Positions 60,646 to 63,604 of a stretch of DNA of 64,000 bases are shown here, piece by piece (within the stretch, counting starts at the first letter, position 1; every line of letters starts with the position of its first letter). Origin of the DNA: Jeotgalibacillus malaysiensis (GTDB taxonomy: Bacteria; Bacillota; Bacilli; Bacillales; Jeotgalibacillaceae); the NCBI GenBank assembly GCA_000818095.1, contig CP009416.1:1348501-1412500 (forward strand), in the 5' to 3' direction. The notes under the pieces were generated by a model. The model saw only the letters and a list, made by a program, of their open reading frames with translations. It made no database searches and was not told the origin of the DNA. The translations under genes were made by a program, and so were the position numbers.

Positions 60646-62313
60646 TCACACTTCCATAATAATTGGTAAGATCATTGGACGACGTTTAGTCTTTTCGTAT
60701 AAGAAAGGCTCTAGTGTATCGGTAATTTCATTTTTAATTTCTGACCACTGGCTTGTCTTATTCGCAAGCACTTTATTTAAATGCTTATAAAGAAGGTGCT
60801 GTGCCTGATTAATCAATTCGCCGGACTCTCTCATATAGACAAATCCGCGTGAGATTAAATCAGGTCCTGAAGCAATTTTATGATCATTCAGGTTTAAACT
60901 CACTACAACAACCACAAGGCCTTCTTCAGATAAAATGCGACGGTCTCTTAATACAATGTTTCCGATATCACCGATTCCGCTGCCATCGATATACACATTA
61001 CCTGAAGGGATTTTTCCTGCAACAGATGCTTCGTTACTGCCAAGTGCCAGTACATCACCATTTTCCATCAGGAAGCAGTTTTCTTCCGGTACACCGCAAT
61101 CAACTGCGAGGCTAGCGTGCATCTTTTGCATTCTGTACTCACCGTGGATCGGCATGAAGAATTTCGGCTTGATCAGACGGAGCATGAGTTTCTGCTCTTC
61201 CTGTGAACCGTGACCGGATGTATGGATATTGTTAAGTGATCCATGAATGACATTTGCACCAGCGCGGTAAAGCAGGTTAATTGTACGGTTTACGCTGATC
61301 GTGTTACCCGGAATTGGTGAAGATGAGAATACAACAGTATCTCCCGGAATAATCTGGATCTGGCGGTGGGTACCATTAGCAATTCTTGAAAGGGCGGCCA
61401 TTGGTTCGCCCTGGCTTCCTGTACATAAAATAACGACTTTATCTGCAGGCATTCTGTTCAGTGTATGTGCATCAATAAACGTATCTTTCGGTGCATTAAT
61501 ATAACCGAGTTCGTGACCGATATTAATTGCATTATCCATACTGCGTCCAAATACAGCTACTTTGCGACCGTACTTAACAGCTGATTCTACAACCTGCTGT
61601 AAGCGATAAATATTTGATGCGAAAGTTGCGAAAATAATACGTCCATTTACAGTCTGGAAGATATCATCAATACTTTCACCGACTTTTCGTTCTGAAAGTG
61701 TAAAATTCGGAACTTCACTGTTTGTACTGTCTGATAATAGAGCAAGAACGCCCTCTTTACCGATCTCAGCCATTTTCGTCAGGTTTGCAGGGTCTCCAAC
61801 CGGCGTGAAATCAAATTTGAAATCTCCTGTATGCACGATATTGCCAGGTGGTGTTTTAACAACTACACCAAAAGAATCGGGAATACTGTGGGTTGTGCGG
61901 AAAAAGCTTACCGCTGTTTTACGGAATTTAATCACATCATCTTCATCGATAGGGTGAAGACGTGTAGATCTTAAAAGACCATGTTCTTCAAGCTTGTTCT
62001 TTAAAAGTCCAAGCGCAAGCTTTCCGCCGTATACAGGAACATTTACCTGTCGGAGTAAATAAGGTATTCCGCCGATGTGATCTTCATGGCCGTGAGTAAT
62101 AAAAAGGCCTTTGATCTTATCAATATTTTTTTCTAAGTAAGTGTAGTCTGGAATAACATAATCAATTCCAAGAAGTTCATCTTCAGGAAATTTGATACCG
62201 GCATCGATCAGAATAATTTCATCCTGAAATTGTACGCCGTATGTGTTCTTTCCGATTTCTCCAAGACCACCGAGGGCAAACACAGCAGTCTGGTCATTTT
62301 TAACAAATTTCAT
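60646..62313 (-). CDS. rnjA: Ribonuclease J1
   Basis: The protein has 555 residues, the usual length. The metallo-beta-lactamase motif [10 protein letters not shown] (H74, H76, D78, H79), the beta-CASP domain ([15 protein letters not shown]), the HGEYRM motif, and the C-terminal dimerisation domain are visible. It is a 5'-3' exonuclease and endonuclease that matures 16S rRNA and decays mRNA. It begins 3 nt after rpoY with no strong ribosome site, so translation is probably coupled. Confidence 0.97.
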
Positions 62314-62316
62314 CTA

Positions 62317-62526
62317 TTACAGCTGTTCCAGTTTGTAATTTTGATGATTTTGTTCGTACTCTAAATATTTGCCCTCTAGCTTTTGTACAAACTCAATATT
62401 GTAGCCATGTCCGCTGAGCTTTTTACGTACTTCTTCTTCCGTCTCAGACTCAATATACATCGCCTTCGTTTTTTCTCTCACTGGTACCTCTGAAGCAATT
62501 TCCTGGTAATAAACCTTAAAAATCAT
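62317..62526 (-). CDS. rpoY: RNA polymerase epsilon subunit
   Basis: The protein has 69 residues. [20 protein letters not shown] and the helix-strand pattern [21 protein letters not shown] match RpoY (YkzG), a small core RNA polymerase subunit of Firmicutes, always placed before rnjA. GGAGAGA precedes the ATG. A terminator-like hairpin lies in its leader. Confidence 0.95.
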
Positions 62527-62552
62527 GTGTATCTCTCCTTCATATAATTACT

Positions 62553-62577
62553 AAAAAAGCGCATTCTTTGCGCTTTA
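62553..62577 (-). terminator. Terminator-like hairpin in the rpoY-rnjA leader
   Basis: On the minus strand AAAGCGC pairs with GCGCTTT around AAAGAAT, then T follows, ending about 27 nt before the rpoY start. It could end upstream read-through or attenuate rpoY-rnjA. Confidence 0.65.
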
Positions 62578-62672
62578 ATTATCATGTTCAACAATTTAAA
62601 AATCTTACTTCATTTTATAGGGTGTAAATATGTCAGTAATATTCTGTACGCTTTACCCCGAACATAAAGAAC

Positions 62673-62695
62673 AGCCCTCCTGATGATGAAGGGCT
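62673..62695 (-). terminator. Weak terminator hairpin after the 23-residue gene
   Basis: On the minus strand AGCCCT pairs with AGGGCT around TCATCATCAGG, followed by GTTCTTT. Confidence 0.5.
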
Positions 62696-62704
62696 TACAG
62701 GGGC

Positions 62705-62776
62705 TCAGGCAATCATCTTTTTACGCAACATGTCTCTCCACTGTCGTGCAAGCTTTTTCTTAAGCTTCTTCAACAT
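62705..62776 (-). CDS. Very small basic peptide gene, 23 residues
   Basis: An ATG with GGAG 9 nt upstream opens a 24-codon frame ending in TGA. The peptide begins MLKKLKKKLARQ, has a central Trp (W13), and contains ten Lys/Arg and only one Asp among 23 residues. It would form an amphipathic helix. It has its own promoter and operator-like palindrome upstream, and a hairpin downstream. I do not recognise it. Fur-regulated small basic proteins (Fbp-type RNA chaperone partners) or a membrane-active peptide are possibilities, not assignments. It fills most of the 339-base stretch between def and rpoY. Confidence 0.6.
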   Translation of the reverse strand: MLKKLKKKLARQWRDMLRKKMIA

Positions 62777-62789
62777 CGCGGATCACTCC

Positions 62790-62826
62790 TTATCATTATC
62801 ATAACGCGGAATGAGCGATCTGTAAA
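62790..62826 (-). promoter_or_regulatory. Promoter with Fur/PerR-like box for the 23-residue gene
   Basis: On the minus strand TTTACA (62821-62826) and TATGAT (62798-62803) are exactly 17 nt apart. TTATGATAATGATAA (62790-62804) overlaps the -10 and differs from the PerR consensus TTATAATNATTATAA at two positions. A Fur site is also possible. Confidence 0.6.
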
Positions 62827-62865
62827 GATAAGGTTCTTGACATAGGAAGTAAAAAAGTTATTTAA

Positions 62866-63423
62866 TTATCTTTCAAGTGGTTCAGCATCATCAGGCTCTT
62901 TGAATGGATCTTCCTGATTGATATGATCATAAAACATGATTCCGTTCAGATGATCAATCTCATGCTGTGCAGCAATTGCGGCAAGTCCTTTTAAACGGAA
63001 CTTCACCTCAGCGCCATCTGTATCAATTCCGCGGATTGTTACTCTGGCATAGCGGACAACATATCCCGGAATATTTTCATCTACTGACAGACAACCTTCA
63101 CCTGAAGTTAAATAGGTCTTATCAACTGAATGACTGATGATCTTAGGATTGGCAATACTAAAACTGTACTCCCTGCCATTGCTGTCTTCAAGATGCAGGG
63201 CAAATATTTGTTTTGAAACATTTATTTGCGGAGCAGCAAGTCCGATCCCGGGACGCAGGTCATATTTCTCAGCAGTCTCGGGATCCTGGCTGTTTTTTAT
63301 ATAGTCAAGAAGTAAAGCCATTGTTTCTTTATCTGTGTCAGATAAAGGAATCTGTACTTTTTCAGCTTTTTGCCGCAGGACAGGGTGACCGTCCCGGACA
63401 ATATCTTTCATTGTAATCATCAT
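62866..63423 (-). CDS. def: Peptide deformylase
   Basis: The protein has 185 residues, with the three motifs GIGLAAPQ (59-66), EGCLS (109-113) and HEIDH (154-158), which hold the metal and the catalytic Glu. The length and the insert after residue 45 fit the type-2 (DefB-like) enzymes of Gram-positives. It removes the formyl group from new proteins. GGGAGGAAAG precedes two tandem ATG codons (63423 and 63420). The region 63424-63575 to the next gene's promoter shows two TATAAT-like hexamers on the minus strand, but no sure promoter. Confidence 0.97.
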   Translation of the reverse strand: MMITMKDIVRDGHPVLRQKAEKVQIPLSDTDKETMALLLDYIKNSQDPETAEKYDLRPGIGLAAPQINVSKQIFALHLEDSNGREYSFSIANPKIISHSVDKTYLTSGEGCLSVDENIPGYVVRYARVTIRGIDTDGAEVKFRLKGLAAIAAQHEIDHLNGIMFYDHINQEDPFKEPDDAEPLER

Positions 63424-63575
63424 TCTTTCCTCCCGATCAAATCATTATAAGCCATATCATATCAGATTATACGGCTGAAAAAAATTAATGAAGCCAAAAC
63501 ATGTGTGTAAAAGATATATTATGACAAAAATATCTCAATTTAGGGGAATTACAATAGTGCTCCGGCTAAAAAAGA

Positions 63576-63604
63576 TTGAAGTTTGTCCTAATCATAGATA
63601 TGAT
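63576..63604 (+). promoter_or_regulatory. SigA promoter of the ykyA lipoprotein gene
   Basis: TTGAAG (63576-63581) and TATGAT (63599-63604) have an ideal 17-nt spacer. Confidence 0.8.

Follow-up and report, generated by a model that had tools for sequence, protein, structure and literature searches.

A small basic peptide gene beside rpoY in Jeotgalibacillus malaysiensis with apparent counterparts in many Bacillus-type bacteria

Genes for very small proteins are readily overlooked in annotation, and a candidate of this kind lies between def and rpoY of Jeotgalibacillus malaysiensis. The window, meaning the whole stretch of DNA that was analysed, comprises 64,000 nt (contig CP009416.1, positions 1,348,501 to 1,412,500). 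A preliminary description had read a complete transcription unit for an undescribed 23-residue basic peptide from this locus, with a Fur- or PerR-like palindrome over its promoter, and had proposed a metal- or peroxide-controlled small protein or a membrane-active peptide. This raises the question whether the unit is a gene, how it is controlled, and what its product might do. Every part named in that description was found, and the unit between def and rpoY is confirmed as complete. In the direction of transcription, the locus contains the following features:

62866..63423, minus strand: def (peptide deformylase; library matches), the 5' neighbour here and often more distant elsewhere
62835..62842, minus strand: TGTCAAGA-type element 5' of the -35 box, kept in relatives
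62798..62826, minus strand: putative sigma-A-type promoter TTTACA-17-TATGAT, matching 10 of 12 consensus bases
62790..62804, minus strand: palindrome TTATGATAATGATAA, read earlier as a Fur/PerR box, with 2 mismatches to the PerR consensus; not conserved
62780..62791, minus strand: extended Shine-Dalgarno site AAGGAG-TGATCC, read from the sequence, with GGAG at 62789-62786
62705..62776, minus strand: 23-codon gene MLKKLKKKLARQWRDMLRKKMIA, its frame taken from the sequence and from comparison across relatives
62729..62755, minus strand: codons 8-16 of this gene (AAG CTT GCA CGA CAG TGG AGA GAC ATG), synonymously unchanged in 12 Jeotgalibacillus genomes
62673..62695, minus strand: putative terminator hairpin AGCCCTTC...GGAGGGCT with a T-rich tail, from a sequence scan
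62317..62526, minus strand: rpoY (RNA polymerase epsilon; Pfam/NCBIfam and relatives), the conserved neighbour 3' of the peptide gene
60646..62313, minus strand: rnjA (ribonuclease J1) 3' of rpoY (NCBIfam NF047419, 979.8 bits, cut-off 820)

The frame opens with ATG at 62776, extends over 23 codons to TGA at 62707-62705, and specifies ten Lys or Arg residues and one Trp. By themselves, scans of the locus give mixed evidence on chance, since the region 62000-63600 contains four promoter-like sites versus 5.6 in shuffled sequences, and four terminator-like sites versus 0.8. It is the comparison with relatives that settles the question: 12 of 12 Jeotgalibacillus genomes, and about 180 loci, share the frame with its start, length and Shine-Dalgarno site, so the order and spacing of the parts are more than chance, as had been claimed.

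Eleven of the Jeotgalibacillus genomes were recovered together and the twelfth (L014) separately, because an extra gene separates def from the peptide gene there. A profile built from 10 peptides (threshold E 0.01) matched 262 of 397 genomes of the order, spanning 90 of 135 genera. Thirty genomes were selected so that families with low scores or no profile match were represented; rpoY was present in 29 of them, and an upstream candidate accompanied it at 24 of these 29 loci; at four (L104, L105, L109, L131) the profile found no candidate upstream of rpoY, and L110 is doubtful. L131 carries a 27-residue basic frame upstream of rpoY which may be a distant form. The Fictibacillus locus L224 likewise has no peptide. 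Of the 398 genomes sampled from the class, 75 matched: 34 of the order, 38 of the Planococcaceae-type group f49, which includes Planococcus (all f49 genomes with RpoY), one of f55 and two of f72, the latter being weak matches that are probably due to chance (E about 9e-4, on contigs differing from that of rpoY). The phylum sample added five matches in 279 genomes, all from groups already positive. The g43 group is called B. subtilis-like here because up to 64 of the 68 residues of its RpoY are identical to those in the B. subtilis chain of 6wvk; its peptides are MLRRLRKKLRRQWGGMLRKKVIA or close variants.

For the comparison of loci, 185 rows were kept from 247 loci once duplicate stretches (130 nt identical) and loci lacking a hit had been removed. 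Two rows (L104 and L224) are false, and the 133 distinct peptides therefore include two false ones. Counts of promoters, hairpins and Shine-Dalgarno sites refer to the 175 rows with a score of at least 13, and Jeotgalibacillus is represented by 11 rows, L008 being merged with L007, to which it is identical over the stretch. Genome G371 yielded two copies near opposite ends of one contig (L098 and L099), probably an overlap in a circular assembly and not a duplication.

Within this set, the length is exactly 23 residues at 168 of the 185 loci and the start is ATG at 178. Nine distinct Jeotgalibacillus coding sequences gave a pN of 0.038 and a pS of 0.325 (pN/pS 0.116), and 162 of their 234 pairwise differences fall on third codon positions; the corresponding values for 24 distinct Planococcaceae-like sequences are 0.173 and 0.693. 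The third-position bias that the preliminary description had expected of the same frame in related genomes is thus observed, and frame, length, start and purifying selection are those of a conserved small-protein gene. Since the same tiny basic gene adjoins rpoY in many Bacillus-type bacteria, the 23-residue gene of Jeotgalibacillus looks real.

The predicted expression signals recur as well. Sigma-A-type promoters precede the peptide gene at 91 of 175 loci (2.9 in dinucleotide shuffles), and in 90 of these 91 the -10 box ends 20-26 nt before the ATG, so that the leader would hardly be longer than the Shine-Dalgarno site. The pattern AGGAG.?TGAT, an extended Shine-Dalgarno stretch complementary to the 3' end of 16S rRNA, stands before the peptide gene at 93 of 175 loci and before rpoY at 1 of 175. 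A terminator-like hairpin lies within 140 nt after the frame at 93 of 175 loci, versus 3.2 in mononucleotide shuffles. Taken together, the sequence comparison establishes a frame under purifying selection with its own predicted promoter, extended Shine-Dalgarno site and putative terminator, kept by rpoY across many Bacillales-type genera.

The promoter appears to be of a different kind in some lineages. The -10 motif CAYATAMTA, which resembles that of sigma-G (consensus TGAAWA-17-CATAMTA), was found at 60 of 175 loci (1.6 in shuffles), and together with a matching upstream element at 26 (0.1 in shuffles). Scored by these patterns, 15 of the 175 loci combine the two promoter kinds and 73 lack both. 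Neither the sigma-G-like pair nor the -10 type occurs in the 11 Jeotgalibacillus rows, and among the 29 rows assigned to Planococcaceae the -10 type occurs once, in L158, a member of f55. The pair was seen in the B. subtilis-like rows L164, L165 and L167 and in L092, L096 and L113, and the -10 type alone in L073, L161-L163 and L166. In the g43 rows shown, no match to a sigma-A promoter was found, so expression appears to differ in this group. These motifs had prompted the idea of a spore-only role. Genes for SASP (PF00269) are present in 269 of 398 class genomes, that of J. malaysiensis among them, and 12 of the 38 peptide-positive f49 genomes have no PF00269 match and retain the peptide, which rules out a role in spores only. 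The sporulation sRNA Bvs196 of B. velezensis is not the same gene, as it lies at a different locus, hinT-ecsA (PMC9147052).

Control by Fur or PerR fared differently. The exact palindrome TTATGATAATGATAA is present at 5 of 175 loci, all of them close Jeotgalibacillus relatives, and when up to 3 mismatches to a Fur-type pattern are allowed, the identical five are selected (1.4 in shuffles). In the last 60 nt upstream, the best match to the PerR box differs from it at 2 positions in the five rows, and the remaining six rows of the genus show 3, 3, 4, 5, 6 and 6 mismatches; these six box-less rows retain the -10 box, the start and the frame. Among 163 other loci, the best match has 2 mismatches in one, 3 in six and 4-6 in 140. 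A box kept in relatives, as would be expected of a PerR regulon member, is thus not seen. The reading has in its favour that the product is small and basic, that the predicted box is only 2 mismatches from the PerR consensus, and that the whole window is richer in such sites (up to 3 mismatches) than shuffled sequences, with 28 PerR-like sites versus 8.7 and 18 Fur-like sites versus 8.5; the box at the peptide gene is one of four PerR-like sites in the window with 2 mismatches. FbpA, FbpB and FbpC are Fur-controlled small basic proteins of B. subtilis, and the likeness to them ends with size and charge. The peptide has its own conserved place by rpoY, a Fur box over the promoter is confined to the five loci, and neither the window peptide nor 22 family members gave an above-chance match in the Pfam and NCBIfam libraries, which to our knowledge include the Fbp models. 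A Fur- or PerR-controlled protein of the FbpA/B/C type is therefore extremely improbable. The preliminary description had made its reading depend on relatives keeping frame, start codon and box: frame and start codon are intact in them and the box is broken. What is supported of that interpretation is a complete transcription unit for a basic small protein; metal or peroxide control and the kinship with Fur-regulated basic proteins are not supported.

Selection at this locus seems to act on more than the amino acid sequence. Across the 12 genomes of Jeotgalibacillus, the peptide gene has 0.249 synonymous differences per site, versus 0.707 in rpoY and 0.836 in def, and eight-codon stretches without synonymous change number 2 of 15, 0 of 61 and 0 of 176, respectively. 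Codons 8-16 have no synonymous change at all and a single replacement (Asp15 to Glu, in L014). Judged by these rates, the DNA of Jeotgalibacillus is constrained here beyond the protein code. The unchanged codons include CGA and AGA, which are non-preferred Arg codons in such genomes. The hairpin core GCCCTTC-N-GRAGGGC follows the gene at 62 of 175 loci, is found a single time in the 4.1-Mb genome of J. malaysiensis, and has one occurrence beyond the peptide-rpoY interval in the 660 kb of locus sequence. Its stem variants retain pairing (e.g. T-A, T-G or C-G at the sixth pair), the tallied hairpins having been preselected for pairing, and its loops vary among loci. Strong expression, a function of the RNA, or nothing more than termination could account for the extra constraint.

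Three further readings involve the RNA itself. The short transcript could be both mRNA and regulatory RNA in the manner of SR1/SR1P, with both parts under selection. The low synonymous rate, the fixed codons and the near-confinement of the hairpin core to this locus speak for it, as does synonymous depletion relative to rpoY in f40 (0.37-fold, 7 loci) and in Domibacillus with the g88 loci (0.53-fold, 6 loci). On the other side, the depletion is missing in Planococcaceae (0.96-fold, 28 loci), the Geobacillus group (0.97-fold, 9 loci) and Rossellomorea (1.56-fold, 18 loci), codons can be conserved by strong expression alone, and the window has no Rfam match at gathering thresholds; an unusual fold of the transcript was considered and rejected, its z of only -1.29 being ordinary. 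SR1P has 39 residues and is encoded at a different place. The likeness, one of description, lies in a short RNA with a small protein in Bacillus and in a possible link to RNA decay, given rnjA behind rpoY here: the available parts of two reports describe SR1 of Bacillus subtilis as a dual-function sRNA whose small protein acts with GapA in RNA degradation (PMC8152036, PMC8501984). All told, we regard a dual-function RNA as rather unlikely. Less credit still is due to a leader peptide whose translation would control read-through into rpoY-rnjA by attenuation. Its position upstream of rpoY on the same strand, the terminator-like hairpin soon after the frame and the Lys-rich start (codons 3-8 of the peptide in the window include five for Lys) would suit this improbable role. 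A sensor of particular codons, however, could not tolerate the free interchange of Lys and Arg seen at positions 4 (64/46) and 6 (60/52) among 112 distinct peptides; the peptide also has a conserved length and C-terminus, and its gene lies anywhere between 163 and 1066 nt from rpoY. Very improbable, finally, is an autoregulatory switch in which the helix binds its own terminator hairpin together with RNA polymerase and so sets rpoY-rnjA read-through. Lambda N is an arginine-rich peptide bound to boxB RNA, whose stem is GCCCU/AGGGC; the present case shares with it a basic helix, some 22 residues long and containing a single Trp, and the boxB-stem sequence, here in the terminator hairpin, whereas position 13 can be Leu or Met here and the hairpin loops vary, both of which argue against specific stacking on a loop.

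The peptide itself is most likely a cationic amphipathic helix made from an mRNA of about 125 nt. Among the 112 distinct peptides, the mean net charge is +8.5 and the mean hydrophobic moment of residues 2-19 is 0.64, versus 0.30 in shuffled peptides; the best angle was 95 degrees in the three peptides scanned, and AlphaFold, run without an alignment on one 43-residue homologue, predicted a helix at residues 2-20 (mean pLDDT 79.8). Ala23 is kept in 110 peptides, Lys20 in 107 and Leu5 in 104, and none of the 112 has anything but Trp, Leu, Met, Cys or Val at position 13, so that hydrophobicity seems to outweigh stacking there.

The peptide gene is closely linked to rpoY, whose start was sought downstream on the same strand only, with at least 22 identical residues required. 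In 177 rows it lies 163-1066 nt downstream (median 263), and within 150-750 nt in 176 of them. Six of the 185 rows lack rpoY within reach; in five, no more than 400 nt of fetched sequence remained, unlike in L044, where its absence from the fetched 1.4 kb has no such explanation. By comparison, def ends within 400 nt upstream at 43 of 175 loci, farther away at 93, and outside the fetched stretch at 39. All 75 profile-positive genomes of the class fall among the 175 RpoY-positive ones, the overlaps of the peptide, SASP and RpoY lists being judged by eye; RpoY does not need the peptide, as the other 100 have no profile match.

Because of this linkage and co-occurrence, and of rnjA behind rpoY, the machinery of transcription and RNA decay is the first place to look. 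In the reading that we prefer, at a probability of about 40%, the peptide would be a cytoplasmic amphipathic helix docking on a partner near nucleic acid, most likely RNA polymerase or the RNA-decay machinery. In Jeotgalibacillus, the housekeeping sigma factor would transcribe a monocistronic mRNA of about 125 nt that is strongly translated. The product would form a single cationic alpha-helix, one side of which presents Leu2/5/9, Trp13 and Met/Leu16/17 and the other Lys/Arg, and would terminate in a near-invariant Ile-Ala. Remaining in the cytoplasm, it would use the hydrophobic side to attach to a conserved partner, presumably the machinery that its neighbours rpoY and rnjA encode, and would tune this partner's activity in growth, and also in the forespore in lineages with a sigma-G-like promoter. 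The identity of the partner is a guess from the gene neighbourhood, and the role with RNA polymerase or RNA decay is only inferred. Against it stand the 100 RpoY-positive genomes without a peptide match, the four order loci without a candidate and the doubtful fifth, the Fictibacillus locus, L044, and the differing expression in g43; synteny with rpoY may be mere inertia. The amphipathic pattern, moreover, suits a membrane surface equally, which as a site of action is nearly as likely. The membrane-active peptide named at the outset is thus possible, in the tentative form of a peripheral helix which binds anionic lipid or a curved membrane and has an envelope role in growth and forespore. A cationic, amphipathic helix with Trp, or another hydrophobic residue, always on its hydrophobic face is consistent with this, as are the many lineages with sigma-G-like motifs. 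SpoVM, a 26-residue amphipathic membrane helix of sporulation, is comparable in size and structure. SpoVM, however, is a mother-cell product, whereas the motif seen before the present gene in some lineages is forespore-like, and genomes lacking a SASP match retain the peptide. The conservation of Lys20 and Ala23 is also tighter than lipid binding alone seems to require, and the gene is kept by rpoY rather than by envelope genes.

In the libraries searched, the peptide is undescribed, as had been proposed. Against Pfam and NCBIfam, the window peptide had no match at E up to 1, and the 22 family members gave one chance-level match, to Lambda_CIII (E 0.83); solved structures yielded only chance matches (E 1.1 or above). 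Searches of the literature by peptide sequence did not find it, supplements and most subscription journals lying outside their scope, and the available parts of PMC2885750 and PMC2994887 contain nothing concerning this gene; the B. subtilis gene may already have a name. Many genera, among them B. subtilis-like ones, keep this 23-residue protein at one length and with one neighbour, yet it matches no Pfam or NCBIfam model. Because of its position by rpoY and rnjA and the switch between a housekeeping and a forespore-type promoter among lineages, it can be tested directly in an organism used in the laboratory.

Some smaller features of the locus deserve mention. The element 5' of the -35 box, TGTCA(A/T)G(A/C) in general form, is present in all 11 Jeotgalibacillus upstream sequences printed despite differing flanks, and the TGTCAAGA-type copy at 62835-62842 matched no recognised site. 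A second terminator-like hairpin (AAAGCGCAAAGAATGCGCTTTTTT; 62553-62576, minus strand) lies directly 5' of the rpoY Shine-Dalgarno site; it is present in the closest relatives and changed or missing in others. The C-terminal residues 18-23 of the peptide follow the pattern RKK-x-IA, which we take to resemble RRKKAI, the signal of MuA for ClpX; if this is true, the peptide would be short-lived.
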